Source: Deltaproteobacteria bacterium
Lineage (GTDB): Bacteria; Desulfobacterota; Syntrophobacteria; BM002
Direction of reading: 5' to 3'
Assembly: GCA_019309045.1 (NCBI GenBank)
Contig: JAFDGZ010000012.1
Span: 1 to 59,461 of the forward strand
DNA: 59,461 nt
In this document: piece after piece, positions 133 through 36,265 of the stretch
Numbering within the stretch: the first letter of the stretch is position 1
Layout of the letters: each line of letters starts with the position of its first letter
The notes under the pieces: model-generated
Databases searched by the model: none
What the model was told of the DNA's origin: nothing
Seen by the model: only the letters and a program-made list of their open reading frames with translations
Position numbers and translations under genes: made by a program

Positions 133-495
133 ATGGATCAAGAAAAGCTCGACTACTTTCGGCAGATACTCACAGAAAGAATGCAAGAACTTCTTGCAGA
201 AGCCGAGAAAACGGTTACTGGCATGACCTCGAGTGGTGAAAATTATCCTGATCCTACTGATCGAGCCTCTCTTGAGTCAGACCGGAATTTCATGCTGAGA
301 ATACGCGACCGGGAGCGCAAGCTTCTCTCGAAGATTACCAGTGCTCTCGAGCGTATTGATTCAGGGGAGTTCGGTATCTGCGAGATGTGTGGCGATGACA
401 TAGGTGAAGAGCGTCTGAAGGCGAGGCCCGTGACCACCCTTTGCATCAACTGCAAGAAAAAGCAGGAAGCCCTCGAGAAAGCTCGTGGATTATAA
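133..495 (+). CDS. dksA: DksA/TraR family zinc-finger transcription factor
   Basis: 120 aa. DksA-type proteins insert a coiled coil into the RNA polymerase secondary channel and, with ppGpp, adjust initiation at stable-RNA and amino-acid promoters. Visible here are an N-terminal helical half (about residues 1-75) with the acidic DPTDRAS segment at the coiled-coil tip, and a C-terminal zinc finger CEMCGDD...CINCKKK with four cysteines. The length is slightly below that of E. coli DksA (151 aa) and typical of the short deltaproteobacterial form. The ATG follows a purine-rich stretch (GGGAGACAAGG). A parS site lies about 190 bp downstream. The family is clear; which of several dksA paralogues this is cannot be told. 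Confidence 0.9.
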   Translation: MDQEKLDYFRQILTERMQELLAEAEKTVTGMTSSGENYPDPTDRASLESDRNFMLRIRDRERKLLSKITSALERIDSGEFGICEMCGDDIGEERLKARPVTTLCINCKKKQEALEKARGL

Positions 496-5687: not shown

Positions 5688-6287
5688 ATGGCCTGGCAAA
5701 AAGGCATACTCGTTGTGGCCGCCTATATTATAGGCTCCATTCCCACGGGCTATCTTATCTGCCGCTGGAGGGCTGGTCTTGATCTCAGGCAAAGCGGCAG
5801 CGGCAACATTGGTGCCACCAATGTTGCCCGCACCCTGGGTGTCCGCTGGGGTGTGCTGGTTCTTCTGCTCGATATGGCCAAAGGTGCCCTGCCCGTGAGT
5901 CTGGCACTGCTTCTTGGGTACGCTCAACCAGAATCCAGGGCTACCTGGGCAGCACTTGCAGGCTCTGCTGCGTTCCTGGGCCATATTTATTCTCTGTTCT
6001 TGCACTTTCGGGGAGGCAAAGGCGTAGCCACTGCCTTTGGGGTCTCTCTGCTGCTGATGCCGCAGGCAGCTCTTGCTGCCCTGGCTATCTTCTCATTCGT
6101 GTGCTGGAAGTGGCGCTATGTGTCCCTGGCATCTTTGCTGGCATCTCTGTCTCTGGTTTTCTGGGCAGCTTTGTTCAACTATCCTCGAGCCTTTCTTGCC
6201 CTGACTATTCTCTTCGCCCTGCTCATTACCATAAGACACAGAGAAAACCTCAGCCGCCTGCGACAGGGCAGAGAACACAGGTGGTGA
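5688..6287 (+). CDS. plsY: glycerol-3-phosphate acyltransferase PlsY
   Basis: 199 aa integral membrane enzyme that transfers the acyl group of acyl-phosphate to glycerol-3-phosphate, the first step of phospholipid synthesis. The three conserved loop motifs are visible: SGNIGATNVARTLG (about residue 38), DMAKGALPV (about 62), and GHIYSLFLHFRGGKGVAT (about 95-115). About five hydrophobic segments match the PlsY topology and the length is normal for the family. GGAGAGG lies eight bases before the ATG. The partner PlsX is not in the window. Confidence 0.95.
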   Translation: MAWQKGILVVAAYIIGSIPTGYLICRWRAGLDLRQSGSGNIGATNVARTLGVRWGVLVLLLDMAKGALPVSLALLLGYAQPESRATWAALAGSAAFLGHIYSLFLHFRGGKGVATAFGVSLLLMPQAALAALAIFSFVCWKWRYVSLASLLASLSLVFWAALFNYPRAFLALTILFALLITIRHRENLSRLRQGREHRW

Positions 6288-6470
6288 CGGCCACCTGTGC
6301 CGGAAATTGCCAGCAAGACATGCCCCATGCCCAGGAGTGAACCGCCGTATCAGAGGCACCTCCGCCAGAATCAGCCTTACTGAAGGCAGACCTGCATTGG
6401 CCTGGAGGCTGCAGAGGGCAACAGGCTGCAAACCATGCTCACCGCCCCTGACACCTGGAGTCAGCAGCAC

Positions 6471-6496
6471 AAAAAAGCCACCATATTCCTGGTGGC
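6471..6496 (-). terminator. intrinsic terminator of the universal stress protein gene
   Basis: On the minus strand GCCACCA, loop GGAATA and TGGTGGC form a perfect 7-bp stem followed directly by six T. It lies 35 bp after the stop of the universal stress protein gene and is convergent with plsY. Confidence 0.85.
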
Positions 6497-30406: not shown

Positions 30407-31063
30407 TCAAGGAGCACTCTGCCTCAGAATTCTTTCCCGCAACAGCCTTACAGTGGCAGCGATGTCTTTTGCCCGGGTAATGGCGCTGATCATTGCCACC
30501 CGCCGAGCTCCCCTGCGCAGCACCTCATCCAGATTGGCCTCATTTATGCCGCCCATAACCGTAAAAGGCACATCCAGTCGAGAACCGATTGTTTCAATAG
30601 CATCAGGCCCCAGGAAAGATTTCAGCCCTTTCTTGGTGCCGGTGGGGAATATGGGGCCGATATTGACATAGTCGGCGCCCTCCTGTTGAGCTTGCAGTGC
30701 CTGTTCCAGGGAATGGCTGGAAGCACCGATGAGCAGCTCAGGTGCCAGCTTTCTGGCAACTGCCACCGGAAGATCATCCTGGCCAAGATGAACACCATCG
30801 GCTTCCACGGCCAGAGCTATGTCAAGATGGTCATTGATTATGAACAGAACACCTTCACTGGCGGTCCGTCTTCTGAAGTGAATCGCCATCTCATACAGGG
30901 CGCGCCTGGAGTACTCCTTCTCTCTAAGCTGGACAATGCGAGCGCCACCTTTGAGTATCTCCTCCAGCACCTCCATGTTGGATCTGCCGCCAGAGAGATG
31001 TTCGCAGGTTACCGGATAGATATCCACCCTGGCAAACATTTGCCGTCTGATTTCTCTGTTCAT
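30407..31063 (-). CDS. thiE: thiamine-phosphate synthase
   Basis: 218 aa TIM barrel. It joins HMP-pyrophosphate and thiazole phosphate to give thiamine phosphate. Motifs are VQLREKEYSRRALYEMA, FIINDHLDIALAVEADGVHLGQDDLPV, LIGASSHSLEQALQAQQEGADYVNIGPIFPTGTKKG and FTVMGGIN followed by a late RRVAMISAIT. Lengths and order match ThiE. It follows the ECF fusion gene by 26 bp on the same strand and so belongs to the thiW operon, matching thiazole uptake. Confidence 0.95.
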   Translation of the reverse strand: MNREIRRQMFARVDIYPVTCEHLSGGRSNMEVLEEILKGGARIVQLREKEYSRRALYEMAIHFRRRTASEGVLFIINDHLDIALAVEADGVHLGQDDLPVAVARKLAPELLIGASSHSLEQALQAQQEGADYVNIGPIFPTGTKKGLKSFLGPDAIETIGSRLDVPFTVMGGINEANLDEVLRRGARRVAMISAITRAKDIAATVRLLRERILRQSAP

Positions 31064-31089: not shown

Positions 31090-33306
31090 TCAGCCTCTTT
31101 CCCCCCAGTAGAACACTGCCAGCAGCGCCACAGCAGCGAGCATAACGCCGTATTCCCACAGGCAGAGATGGAGTTCCCTCCAGGAGCTGCGCTCCTTCCT
31201 GCTGAAGCCGCGGGATTCCATGGCCAGAGCCAGCTCGTCAGCCAGAACGAATGTCTGCACCAGAAGCGGCATGAGCAGGGCAGCAAGATTTCTGGCATTT
31301 CTCAACCGCAGCTTGAGATCGATGCCCCTGGACCGCTGTGCCTCCATAATATTTTTCATTTTCCTCTTGATGAGGGGCACATAGCGCATGGCGGTAGTCA
31401 GAATAAAAGTGATCTCGAAAGGCAAGCGCAGCTTGCCGAGTGCCTGTCCCATCTCATCGGTGCTAATGGAGCTAAAGAGGATAAAGGACACATTCAACAG
31501 ATTGACGAGCCTCACAGTGAGCAGAACAGCCGGCTGCAGACCAAAGGCAACAAGGCCGATGGCAAATACCAGCCCTGCTACAGGGGCCATCATTTTGAGA
31601 GAAGCAAGCCACTTCCTGCCAGAGCCGAGAGCAGCCACAACAGCCAGTATTGCGCCAAGTTCCAGGAAGAGAGTCGTTGGTCTCGTGGCAATGAACACCG
31701 CCACAATACCCAGCAGCCCCAGGGCAAGCCTGGTCCTGGGATCGAGCAGCTCGGCCCTTTCTTTTCTCAGCAGATTATGCCGTTGGTGCCCCTCAACAGG
31801 ACGCTCAACCCCTGTGTCATTGGCTGCAGCCTTGCCAACAGCACTCTTTTCCTGACATTCCAGCGCCCCTGCCCGGACGAGTCCCTCATCGGCACACAGT
31901 TCTTCCGGGGGACCATCAGCCACCAACCTACCATCGTGGAGAACAAGCCAGCGCGAAGCCACTGCTCTGGCAAAATCGAGATCGTGAGTCACCACTACCA
32001 CGCTCATGCCGTTTTTTTCAGAAGCTCTAAGCTTGTGGGCGAGAGTCTCGCGAAAACGACCATCCTGCCCTGCTGTGGGCTCATCGAGCACTAGAACTCT
32101 TGGAGCCAGCGCTAGGATGGAAGCGATGGCCACCCGCTTCTTTTCTCCTTCGCTCAGTTTGTAAGGCGAACGGTCAAGCAGTGCTTCCAATTCGAGAATA
32201 TGGCAGATTGAAGAAAAAAGCTCCCTGTCTTCCCTGGCCAGCATTTCAGGGCCCACCATGATCTCATCTCTAACTCGATACTTGAAAAACTGGTCGTTGG
32301 CATTCTGAAAGCAAAGTCCCACAAGAGCTGCCATCTCTTCAGCAGATTTCTCAGCCACTCTTTCTCCGAGAAATCTGACTTCCCCACCGGCAGGAGTGAG
32401 AAGTCCGTTCAAGTGTTTGATCAATGTTGTCTTGCCGGAGCCATTGCGGCCCACAATGGCAATTGTCTCTCCTGCCCTCAGATCAAAAGATATATCCTCT
32501 AGAATCATTCTGTTGTCAAAACGGCAGCAAAGATCGCGCACCTCCAGTATGGTGTCGCTGCTGGCAACCCCTTTTTTCTCCTCGGGATACCGGGGCAACA
32601 GGTGCAGATCACGCAATACTTCCCGGGCAAACTCCGGCCGCTCCACCAGGAGCACTTCTCCCCCTTCCATGATAAGGCAGCGATCAACATCATCCAGAAA
32701 AGGACCAACTGTCTGTTCAATGACAATTACGGTAGTCCCCTGCTGGCGAATTGACCGCAAGGCCGCTCTGACCCGCGTCATAGAGAGCCAGTCCAGGTCT
32801 CCATAGGGTTCGTCCACCACAATCACTGCTGGCTCGAGACACAACACCGAAGCAATTGCCACCAGTCGCTTTTCTCCACCTGAAAGCTGCGCGGTATCGC
32901 GCTCTAGCAAGGATGTTATTCCCAGGGTCTGGCAAACTTTCTCTATGCGCTGCTCAATTTCAGCCCCGGAACACCCCAGACTTTCCAGACCAAAGGCAAG
33001 TTCGTTTTGCACTGTGCTGTTAAAAAGCTGTGCTTCACAGTTCTGCAGCACCAGCCCCACCCGGGGAAAAAGCTCAGCTACGCTTTTCTCAGTGGTGCTG
33101 CAGCCCTCTATCTGCACCGAGCCCTGTAAAGTGCCTCCAAAAAAGTGCGGAATAAGACCATTGCAGAGATATGCCAGGCTGGATTTACCGGAACCACTGG
33201 CCCCGCAGACCAGCAGGTATTCGCCTGGAGAAACCGTCAGCTCGAGCCCTTTGAGAACCCATTCAGAGTCTGGATAGCTGTACCATACGCCTGTGAATTC
33301 GATCAC
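31090..33306 (-). CDS. ECF transporter EcfA-EcfA-EcfT fusion protein
   Basis: 738 aa, one chain carrying both ATPases and the EcfT membrane subunit of an energy-coupling factor transporter. ATPase 1 (about 1-235) has Walker A GASGSGKSS at 35, signature LSGGEKR at 141 and Walker B VIVVDEP at 161; its H-loop reads VIEQ (Gln198) where His is usual. ATPase 2 (about 250-475) has GRNGSGKTT, LSEGEKKR, LVLDEP and a normal H-loop VTHD. EcfT (about 515-738) has several membrane helices and coupling motifs AQRSRGID and ESRGF. The GTG start overlaps the thiW stop by 4 bp. Substrate specificity would come from ThiW. The long open frame upstream of the GTG overlaps thiW and is not used. Confidence 0.92.
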   Translation of the reverse strand: MIEFTGVWYSYPDSEWVLKGLELTVSPGEYLLVCGASGSGKSSLAYLCNGLIPHFFGGTLQGSVQIEGCSTTEKSVAELFPRVGLVLQNCEAQLFNSTVQNELAFGLESLGCSGAEIEQRIEKVCQTLGITSLLERDTAQLSGGEKRLVAIASVLCLEPAVIVVDEPYGDLDWLSMTRVRAALRSIRQQGTTVIVIEQTVGPFLDDVDRCLIMEGGEVLLVERPEFAREVLRDLHLLPRYPEEKKGVASSDTILEVRDLCCRFDNRMILEDISFDLRAGETIAIVGRNGSGKTTLIKHLNGLLTPAGGEVRFLGERVAEKSAEEMAALVGLCFQNANDQFFKYRVRDEIMVGPEMLAREDRELFSSICHILELEALLDRSPYKLSEGEKKRVAIASILALAPRVLVLDEPTAGQDGRFRETLAHKLRASEKNGMSVVVVTHDLDFARAVASRWLVLHDGRLVADGPPEELCADEGLVRAGALECQEKSAVGKAAANDTGVERPVEGHQRHNLLRKERAELLDPRTRLALGLLGIVAVFIATRPTTLFLELGAILAVVAALGSGRKWLASLKMMAPVAGLVFAIGLVAFGLQPAVLLTVRLVNLLNVSFILFSSISTDEMGQALGKLRLPFEITFILTTAMRYVPLIKRKMKNIMEAQRSRGIDLKLRLRNARNLAALLMPLLVQTFVLADELALAMESRGFSRKERSSWRELHLCLWEYGVMLAAVALLAVFYWGERG

Positions 33307-33785
33307 GGTTCCCAGACCTTTCCTTTGCGCAGCAAATGCAGAGCAACGATCCCTATGATGGTGCCGCCGATGGTACTGATACTGAAGGCAATCATCAGGC
33401 TCGCCGCAGCCATGGTCCTGCCCATGAACACCGGAGCAATTATCCAAACGCTGGCCAGCGAGCCCAGCAAACCAGTGCCCACAATCTCTCCCAGACCAGC
33501 TAGATAGATGTTTTTCGACCATCGGTAGGCCAGTCCTGCCAGCAAAGCGCCGATCATGCCGCCCGGGAAAGCAAGGATGGTCCCCAGCCCTAGAATATTT
33601 CGAATAACAGCAGCAATACCGGCGATGCACACGGCATACCAGGGGCCGAGCAGCACAGCACTCAAGACATTCACCATATGCTGCGCCGGGAAGCATTTGG
33701 AGATGCCAACCGGAATGAAAAATGGTGACAGTGCCACAGCAATCGCCACCAGCACTACTGCTCGGGCCACATCTTTCGACTTCAC
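33303..33785 (-). CDS. thiW: ECF transporter S component ThiW
   Basis: 160 aa. It has about five or six hydrophobic helices; the beginning AVVLVAIAVALSPFFIPVGISKCFPAQHMVNVLSAVLLGPWYAV is typical of ThiW, the substrate-binding unit thought to import hydroxyethylthiazole. The start is GTG with GGGGAGAGG eight bases upstream. The stop overlaps the ECF fusion gene (GTGA), so translation is coupled. The gene lacks a TPP riboswitch directly upstream; one lies 1.1 kb further up on the same strand, across nfo. Confidence 0.93.
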   Translation of the reverse strand: MKSKDVARAVVLVAIAVALSPFFIPVGISKCFPAQHMVNVLSAVLLGPWYAVCIAGIAAVIRNILGLGTILAFPGGMIGALLAGLAYRWSKNIYLAGLGEIVGTGLLGSLASVWIIAPVFMGRTMAAASLMIAFSISTIGGTIIGIVALHLLRKGKVWEP

Positions 33786-33944
33786 GACACCTCTCCCCTC
33801 GCTCTACACCGTTGGCAGCATTCTGCTGCCTCCGGGCAAGCCAATTCCAATCGTTTGCCGAGCCGCCACTGTAAGGCAGCCCTTTACAGCCACACCTATC
33901 CAGGCTATTTTTTCCTCCAACAACGCTCGCCAGGGAGGAACCTC

Positions 33945-34862
33945 ATGCCCTTGTTCGGTGCTCACATGTCCATTGCGGGCGGCCTTCATCTCGCCTTTCA
34001 GCGAATCCAGGAAGTACAGGGCGATACTCTGCAGATCTTCACCAGAAACCAGAGGCAGTGGCGCAGCCCGCCTCTCTCAACTGAGGAAATCCAAAAATTC
34101 CAGCAGTACCGGCGGCAGATGCACCCTATGCCGGTGGCAGCTCACGACTCCTATCTCACCAACCTTGCTGCTCCACCAGGAGAACTGCTCGACAAGTCCA
34201 TGCTCTCCTTCGCAGGAGAACTGCAGCGCCTGGAAGCTCTCCAGATTCCATTTCTCATTACTCACCCTGGCTCTCATCTAGGGCAGGGCAGAGAAGCCGG
34301 TCTCAAACGATATGTCCGCAACCTCGACCAGGCCATCTCTGCCGCCGCTGTGAGCCAGGTGACCATACTTATTGAAACAACAGCAGGCCAGGGCACCAAC
34401 CTCGGGTCAAGCTTCGAAGAGATAGCTTACATCCTGGAGAACAGCCGCTACAGCCACATGCTCGGCGTCTGCCTGGACACCTGTCATATCTTTGCTGCCG
34501 GCTATGATTTTCGCAGCCGCAAGGCCTACGAGGCAACCTTCTCCGCTTTTGACAAAATTGTGGGCTTGCAGCAGCTCAAATTTATCCACCTCAACGACTC
34601 CAGGCGCCCCCTGGGCTCCCGGGTGGACAGGCATCAGCATATCGGTGCTGGCCACATCGGCCTGGCTGGCTTCCAGCTGCTCGTCAACGACCCCCGCTTT
34701 CAGACACATCCCATGGTGCTGGAAACACCAAAGGGGCAGACCCTGCTCGAGGACCGCAAGAATCTCGACACCCTTCGCTCGCTCCATGCTGACAGCCCGG
34801 CCACCTTCCAGCAAAAAAGGCTGCTCGCCAGCAGAGCAGCCTCAGGTAACGCATCCATGTAG
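33945..34862 (+). CDS. nfo: endonuclease IV (deoxyribonuclease IV)
   Basis: 305 aa AP endonuclease for base-excision repair. Family motifs are GAHMSIAGGLHLAFQRI, PMPVAAHDSYLTNLAAP, LITHPGSHLGQG, ILIETTAGQGTNLGSSFEEI, VCLDTCHIFAAGYDF, KFIHLNDS, HQHIGAGHIG and MVLETPK. Those residues bind the three zinc ions. The ATG follows GGGAGGAA. The last about 20 residues (from SPATFQQKRL) go past the usual end, and their codons overlap a minus-strand terminator hairpin. The gene lies, in opposite orientation, between the TPP riboswitch and thiW. Confidence 0.95.
   Translation: MPLFGAHMSIAGGLHLAFQRIQEVQGDTLQIFTRNQRQWRSPPLSTEEIQKFQQYRRQMHPMPVAAHDSYLTNLAAPPGELLDKSMLSFAGELQRLEALQIPFLITHPGSHLGQGREAGLKRYVRNLDQAISAAAVSQVTILIETTAGQGTNLGSSFEEIAYILENSRYSHMLGVCLDTCHIFAAGYDFRSRKAYEATFSAFDKIVGLQQLKFIHLNDSRRPLGSRVDRHQHIGAGHIGLAGFQLLVNDPRFQTHPMVLETPKGQTLLEDRKNLDTLRSLHADSPATFQQKRLLASRAASGNASM
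34813..34841 (-). terminator. riboswitch-linked intrinsic terminator
   Basis: On the minus strand GGCTGCTC, a 7-nt loop and GAGCAGCC make a perfect 8-bp GC-rich stem followed by six T. It lies 22 bp downstream of the TPP riboswitch, the usual expression platform. It is inside the last codons of nfo on the other strand. The same palindrome on the plus strand has no T-run, so it acts on the minus strand only. Confidence 0.9.
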
Positions 34863-34863
34863 T

Positions 34864-34938
34864 GCCGATTCCTCCGCCGGTATTGTCCGGATCAGGTTCC
34901 AGGGGTTTGATCTCAGCCCTTGTGGGCACCCCCTCGGC
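34864..34938 (-). promoter_or_regulatory. TPP riboswitch (THI element)
   Basis: Minus-strand sequence. P1 is closed by GCCGA (5') and TCGGC (3'). Between these lie the conserved GGGCTGAGATC block and ACCTGATCCGGACAATACC with GGCGGAGGAA, the thiamine pyrophosphate aptamer core. All highly conserved positions that I can recall are present. A promoter lies immediately upstream and an intrinsic terminator immediately downstream, so TPP should cause premature termination. The next gene in the same direction is thiW, 1.08 kb away, with nfo lying antisense in between. Confidence 0.95.
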
Positions 34939-34948
34939 TGCAGTAGTA

Positions 34949-34977
34949 ATTATGCTCTGCAATTAGCCGGATGTCAA
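34949..34977 (-). promoter_or_regulatory. sigma70 promoter of the TPP riboswitch transcript
   Basis: On the minus strand TTGACA (34977-34972), exactly 17 bp, then CATAAT (34954-34949). The expected start point, about seven bases later, coincides with the 5' end of the riboswitch. This is one of the closest consensus promoters in the window. Confidence 0.8.
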
Positions 34978-35164: not shown

Positions 35165-36265
35165 ATGGACTCTCTTTCTATTCAGCAAAAGGTGCAGCGG
35201 GCGAGACTCCTCTGCCAGGTATGGTCGAAAAGACTCTTGCAGGAAAACTCCATAAGAACTTTGCTGGAGACACTGCAGCAGAACCTGCATGCCAGCCGGC
35301 AGACCATGCGGCAGGTGGGATTGGTGGAAATCTGCAAGAGATGTGAAGAACTGGAAGGAGGTAGCTGTTGCGGCAAGGGCATCGAGAACAGATACAATGA
35401 AATTCTCCTGCTGATAAATCTTCTTCTCGGCTGCCAGCTGTCAGACGAACAGCACCGTGCTGACAGCTGCTTCTTTCTCGGCCCCAGGGGCTGCACCCTA
35501 TTGGCTCGCCATGTGCTCTGCGTCAACTATCTCTGTCAAGCGGCACGTCAGGAGCTTTCAGCGCAGGCCCTGCACAGTCTCCAGCACTCTGCTGGAGTGG
35601 AACTGGAGACCACTTTTTTGCTCCATGAGAAGATCAAAGAATACATCAGGAGGAGCCAGCTGGCTCAGACTATCGCCACGATCACAGATTTCTACAATGC
35701 CCGCAAGTATGGCTATGAAGGCTTTGAAGGCTATCGCAAATCCACTGACCTGACAAAACTCACAAGCTGTGTCAGGGCACTGCAGTCGCAGGGGTTGCTG
35801 GAGGCGCAGCGCACTGTCTTCCTTGACCTGGGATGCGCCGATGGCAGGGTTAACATTCTCCTGAGTTATTTCGTCAAATATTCTCTGGGGATCGAAATTG
35901 ACGGGGAGATCCTGGCCGAAGCAGATGGTCGCCTGGCCAAGCTGCAAGCCCGCCTCGAGGATGCCTTTCTTTTGCCTGTGCCGGGGAATGTTACCCTACT
36001 CTCGGGCGACTCCCTGCAAAGTGAGCCGTATGTCGAGTTCAAGAAGAAGCTTGGAGTGCACTTCTCAGACGTTGACGTCTTTTACACCTACATTACTCTC
36101 CACGATCTTTTTGCTGCAAAGATCGCCAGAGAAGCAAAAGCTGGCGCTCTGTATCTGGTATACGGCTTCAACAAGGTTCTGCCGCAGTATGAAGGCCTGC
36201 AGCTGATCGATCCAGATCTGGCCGGCCAGGGCATCGTGGCCCTTTACCGCAAGAGGCTCTCCTAG
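35165..36265 (+). CDS. YkgJ-like Cys-rich domain fused to a SAM methyltransferase
   Basis: 366 aa. The N-terminal half has cysteines in the order C57-x2-C60, C68-C69, then C102, C110, C119 and C124 (SCFFLGPRGCTLLARHVLCVNYLC). This resembles the metal-binding YkgJ (zinc/iron-chelating) pattern. From about residue 215 a class I methyltransferase follows: motif I VFLDLGCADGRVN, a second acidic strand GIEIDGEIL, and VFYTYITLHDLFAAK. The segment DFYNARKYGYEGFEGYRKS (about 175-193) bridges the two. The substrate is unknown. GGAGG lies eleven bases before the ATG. I have not met this fusion as a named family. Confidence 0.75.
   Translation: MDSLSIQQKVQRARLLCQVWSKRLLQENSIRTLLETLQQNLHASRQTMRQVGLVEICKRCEELEGGSCCGKGIENRYNEILLLINLLLGCQLSDEQHRADSCFFLGPRGCTLLARHVLCVNYLCQAARQELSAQALHSLQHSAGVELETTFLLHEKIKEYIRRSQLAQTIATITDFYNARKYGYEGFEGYRKSTDLTKLTSCVRALQSQGLLEAQRTVFLDLGCADGRVNILLSYFVKYSLGIEIDGEILAEADGRLAKLQARLEDAFLLPVPGNVTLLSGDSLQSEPYVEFKKKLGVHFSDVDVFYTYITLHDLFAAKIAREAKAGALYLVYGFNKVLPQYEGLQLIDPDLAGQGIVALYRKRLS

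Follow-up and report, generated by a model that had tools for sequence, protein, structure and literature searches.

What does a riboswitch control when the gene in front of it points the wrong way? The window analysed here—the whole stretch of DNA under study, 59,461 nt of genome G000, a member of family f1—holds a TPP riboswitch that raises this question. Such switches usually, if not by strict definition, lie directly before the thiamine gene that they control. The next gene on the strand of this one is thiW, about 1 kb away across an opposing gene, nfo; from the T-run of the leader to the start of thiW there are 1,028 nt. The original prediction saw two ways to read this geometry: either the switch governs thiW and its operon through nfo, by way of a long antisense transcript, or nfo has inserted or inverted between an old leader and its operon, leaving the switch an orphan. 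Comparison with relatives indicates that the switch is indeed an orphan, but not of that operon. Very probably it is the leader of a lost thiC, a remnant of gene loss stranded beside nfo.

The leader itself has every part that had been read in it. On the minus strand it begins with a sigma-70-like promoter, TTGACA-17-CATAAT (34977–34949), the sole site in the window, both strands scanned, to match at 11 of 12 positions. The aptamer follows at 34852–34943 (minus strand); it is the window's one Rfam match at gathering scores (RF00059, covering the whole model at 72.6 bits, where the gathering score is 54.3; E 2.1e-12), and the span first given for it, 34864–34938, is that of the P1-closed core and not of the complete match. 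An intrinsic terminator, the expression platform, completes the leader (34813–34841, minus strand): a perfect 8-bp stem, GGCTGCTC-7-GAGCAGCC at 34841–34819, with a folding energy of −14.2 kcal/mol, and then T6 at 34818–34813. The 5' side of P1, GCAGCC (34936–34941, minus strand), can pair instead with the 5' arm of the terminator, GGCUGC, to give an antiterminator. Folding predicts that terminator and antiterminator exclude one another in this leader and in those of two relatives, G005 and G002: in all three the GCAGCC/GGCUGC pairing is predicted once the 3' arm of the terminator is omitted. In G000 the intermediate comes to −37.8 kcal/mol when antiterminated and to −33.6 with P1 formed; for the complete leader the values are −48.9 (P1 plus terminator) and −43.9 kcal/mol. 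Without TPP, then, GCAGCC would pair with the terminator arm (GGCTGC in DNA) and transcription would continue; with TPP, P1 would form, and the terminator would end transcription after about 130 nt.

Whose leader is this? G005, which belongs to the same family, has orf366 first, then promoter, TPP aptamer, terminator and thiC, convergent with nfo, then an MFS gene and thiE (locus L080; TPP element 5706–5797, thiC ATG at 5854, ThiC identified by NCBIfam). The leader stands where it does in the window, with the start of orf366 on one side and the 3' end of nfo on the other, and its promoter, TTGACA-17-AATAAT, has the same layout. The promoter, aptamer and terminator of the window align, in the same order, with those of the thiC leaders of G005 and of G002, where a leader of this type precedes thiC at a different locus. 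When the aptamers of 32 TPP elements from G000 and its relatives were compared, the closest three to the window's all proved to be thiC leaders (G002, 74.7% identity; G005 and G043, 73.9%), as did nine of the closest ten; thiW leaders shared 52–58%, except that of G002, at 67.8%. When 56 genomes of the class were searched at the DNA level, the top match outside G000 was the thiC leader of G005. The window thus has a thiC leader in all its parts, and no thiC behind it. That a thiW leader was moved here can be rejected: G002 and G003 have different terminators in their thiW leaders, and the resemblance to most thiW aptamers is weaker.

The ground on which the leader stands is old. orf366 (35165–36265, plus strand), its neighbour on the other side, is syntenic with nfo in most genomes of the family (G001, G002, G005, G006, G008, G009, G010 and G012), and this rules out the insertion or inversion of nfo that the original prediction had offered as the cause of orphaning. 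orf366 has no match in Pfam or NCBIfam. By eye its C-terminal half resembles a methyltransferase, and it is a single ORF in the window where most relatives have two adjacent ones.

It is the 3' end of nfo (endonuclease IV, TIGR00587; 33945–34862, plus strand) that bears the scar. We compared its C-terminus in ten relatives whose copies are complete at that end, nine from f1 together with G043 (the G003 copy is cut by its contig). Past the residues LRSL the protein continues for three to eight residues in the f1 relatives, for 13 in G043, and for 25 in G000 only. These last 25 codons, from 34785 on, are a new extension, read from the reverse complement of the terminator and on into the aptamer match, within which the stop codon (34860–34862) falls. 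The terminator (34841–34813) does therefore sit in the last codons of nfo, as had been noticed at the outset. Between its T-run and the ancestral end of nfo, as judged from G005 and the ten C-termini, lie 28 nt (34785–34812) that would hold the junction left by the loss of thiC.

These features fit a simple course of events. The ancestor would have had orf366 followed by promoter, TPP aptamer, terminator and thiC, convergent with nfo, an order that survives in G005. A deletion in the lineage of the window would then have taken thiC, with one end immediately after the terminator and the other slightly within nfo, at its 3' end. Deprived of its own stop, nfo would have come to read on for 25 residues, along the strand opposite the terminator, until it met a stop inside the aptamer match. 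nfo itself would never have moved.

The rest of the genome is in keeping with this. Neither a protein search nor a Pfam search finds ThiC in G000, and the Pfam search was positive in 13 of 14 control genomes; among the 13 genomes of the family, some of them incomplete, the protein search finds it in G002 and G005 only. ThiG is likewise missing from G000, where it gives only weak partial matches, and a ThiD-type kinase is encoded at full length. The genome has a second TPP riboswitch (L094, contig C60, 374–476), before an ABC transporter operon (ATPase, permease and SsuA-like binding protein) that is plausibly for the pyrimidine precursor. G000 seems, then, to scavenge both halves of thiamine, and the loss of thiC fits such a habit.

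The history of thiC at nfo is another matter. The thiC–nfo arrangement is found in G005 alone, a point against our reading. No remnant of the leader was seen at nfo in the other f1 genomes examined, at E up to 0.5, nor any TPP element near nfo in 14 loci of more distant relatives. In a tree of thiW and nfo, with G043 as the outgroup, G000 falls outside the other f1 genomes, and G005 lies deep inside its genus. The shared position is explained most simply by a leader with thiC at nfo in the ancestor of the family and several losses since then; alternatively, it may reflect a later transfer. A scan for a closer genus of relatives of G000 found none, the top nfo identity being only 62%.

If the leader is a relic, it is a well-preserved one. 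We looked for decay in its bit score, P1, terminator and antiterminator and saw none in comparison with leaders that still precede thiC; the aptamer, at 72.6 bits, is on a par with its thiC-linked homologues, at 71.9 and 73.1. So intact a switch is unexpected for an old remnant, and this counts against our reading. The nfo proteins of G000 and G005 are only about 65% identical, so that an unselected leader should show decay had thiC gone early. Either, then, thiC was lost recently or the RNA is still under selection, and a single genome cannot distinguish between the two. Judged by its predicted folds, the leader can probably still switch. Most likely it controls no gene today.

Could it, instead, control thiW? 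Protein family matches bear out the minus-strand operon that had been described beyond nfo: thiW (33303–33785; TIGR02359), the S component for a thiazole precursor; a fused ecfA-ecfA'-ecfT ORF with two ABC ATPase domains and a CbiQ-type T domain (31090–33306, the start at 33306 being suggested by a GTGA overlap with the thiW stop); and thiE (30407–31063). In the sister genus and in G002 the T component has an ORF of its own, apart from that of the two-ATPase protein. In an excludon, one long RNA is antisense to one gene and the mRNA of its neighbour. Were this locus of that kind, low TPP would let transcription read through the terminator, producing about 1 kb of RNA antisense to nfo that continues as thiW-ecfAAT-thiE mRNA, so that thiazole uptake went up and nfo down. 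The coordinates suit this: the promoter, placed past the 3' end of nfo, aims at a divergent operon downstream on its own strand. The switch is intact, too, and scores as well as its thiC-linked homologues. Directly upstream thiW has no TPP leader and no clear promoter, the best sigma-70 matches there (7–8 of 12) being at background. And in six genomes (G002, G003, G020, G021, G043 and G049) a TPP leader does stand before thiW.

We nevertheless consider this reading unlikely. The cognate gene of the leader is thiC, and the arrangement in the window is not kept in relatives: the same riboswitch precedes thiC in G005, and to find it before a different gene in a relative was what the original prediction itself had named as telling against the excludon. 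In none of the relatives examined does an opposing gene lie between a TPP leader and thiW, and thiW in the f1 relatives examined sits elsewhere, away from the locus of the leader at nfo. In nine genomes of the sister genus no TPP element was found near thiW in the stretch examined (some contigs are short upstream), so thiW in the window's family does not need one; and since several of these thiW genes likewise show matches of just 7–8 of 12, the lack of a clear promoter in the window weighs little. A kilobase of untranslated RNA would, moreover, be exposed to Rho. A link of the switch to thiW is thus possible but unsupported. G005, for its part, carries a second copy of thiW, truncated at the 3' end (L079, about 6076–6471; query residues 1–132), with an almost identical upstream region.

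The leader might also, with no role for thiW, act on nfo alone, as a TPP-controlled antisense RNA or an interfering promoter. Its near-consensus promoter would fire into the 3' end of nfo, and by coordinates even the terminated RNA would overlap the nfo reading frame over its final 50 nt. This, too, we find improbable. nfo encodes a DNA-repair endonuclease; nothing ties it to TPP, we know of no such link, and we see no evidence for a switch that joins B1 to DNA repair. The deletion alone, besides, accounts for the geometry. Antisense-acting riboswitches are on record, but in the survey that describes them TPP riboswitches are not enriched in the antisense orientation (83 antisense versus 9,766 sense, P 1.00; PMC9943018).

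There is a small chance, finally, that the leader was kept after the loss of thiC for a new job, as the source of a long, TPP-controlled RNA that would lower nfo as its antisense and double as the mRNA for thiazole uptake; if so, an ordinary riboswitch became an excludon switch through the loss of a gene. Because G000 is a draft (211 contigs, 96.9% complete), thiC could lie in an assembly gap or the junction be misassembled, but that the organism has a thiC which assembly dropped between leader and nfo is very improbable, the whole assembly being without one, as are most genomes of the family, and leader and nfo both being G000's own diverged versions.

A TPP-like aptamer of another kind came to light along the way, outside thi operons. 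It occurs in eight copies in seven genomes of the window's family: G000 (L243, contig C83, about 181–377, minus strand), G001, G004, G006, G010 (cut by the contig end), G011 (two copies) and G012; the other loci are L245, L246, L244, L239, L241, L242 and L240. The element, about 200 nt long, has its own promoter-like stretch, a long closing helix and a T-run. In the full copies the promoter-like stretch is similar, around CTTGACC, with a −10-like hexamer that ends 6 nt before the first helix in six of seven, and the closing helix, GTGACCCCAAG ... CTTGGGGTCAC, is 18 bp long, with 97.6% of cells paired. No gene is constant downstream, and in G004 the element is inverted relative to its neighbours. 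A covariance model of the element gives full-length, high-scoring matches (190–216 bits) solely in the window's family; in other genomes of the phylum sample its matches are mostly confined to the aptamer, and the few that span the full length are weak, at no more than 50 bits. From its sequence the element looks like a candidate free-standing TPP-sensing small RNA.

Unless we misread the locus at nfo, it illustrates the making of an orphan riboswitch: the gene under control disappears, its promoter, sensor and terminator stay behind, and the protein next door acquires a tail encoded on the strand opposite the terminator. Surveys that go by orientation only would count such cases as antisense-acting riboswitches, and gene loss is therefore the first thing to test for. 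Should the RNA prove to be under selection still, the locus would offer a natural example of how an antisense riboswitch originates.

The known systems that this locus recalls are three. With excludons it shares a promoter that sits past the 3' end of a gene and points through that gene at a divergent operon; it differs in that the arrangement, known here from sequence alone, is not conserved, and in that the leader evolved with thiC. With antisense-acting riboswitches, such as the SAM switch of ubiG-mccB-mccA in Clostridium acetobutylicum and the cobalamin switch of pocR in Listeria (PMC9943018), it shares a riboswitch that adjoins a gene's 3' end and is transcribed toward that gene from the opposite strand; unlike theirs, its orientation is explained by the loss of the true target. 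It comes closest to the thiC leaders of G005 and G002, TPP riboswitches with a transcription terminator (RF00059) to which its promoter, aptamer, antiterminator and terminator are homologous. In those leaders thiC comes next; in the window it is the 3' end of nfo, facing the other way.
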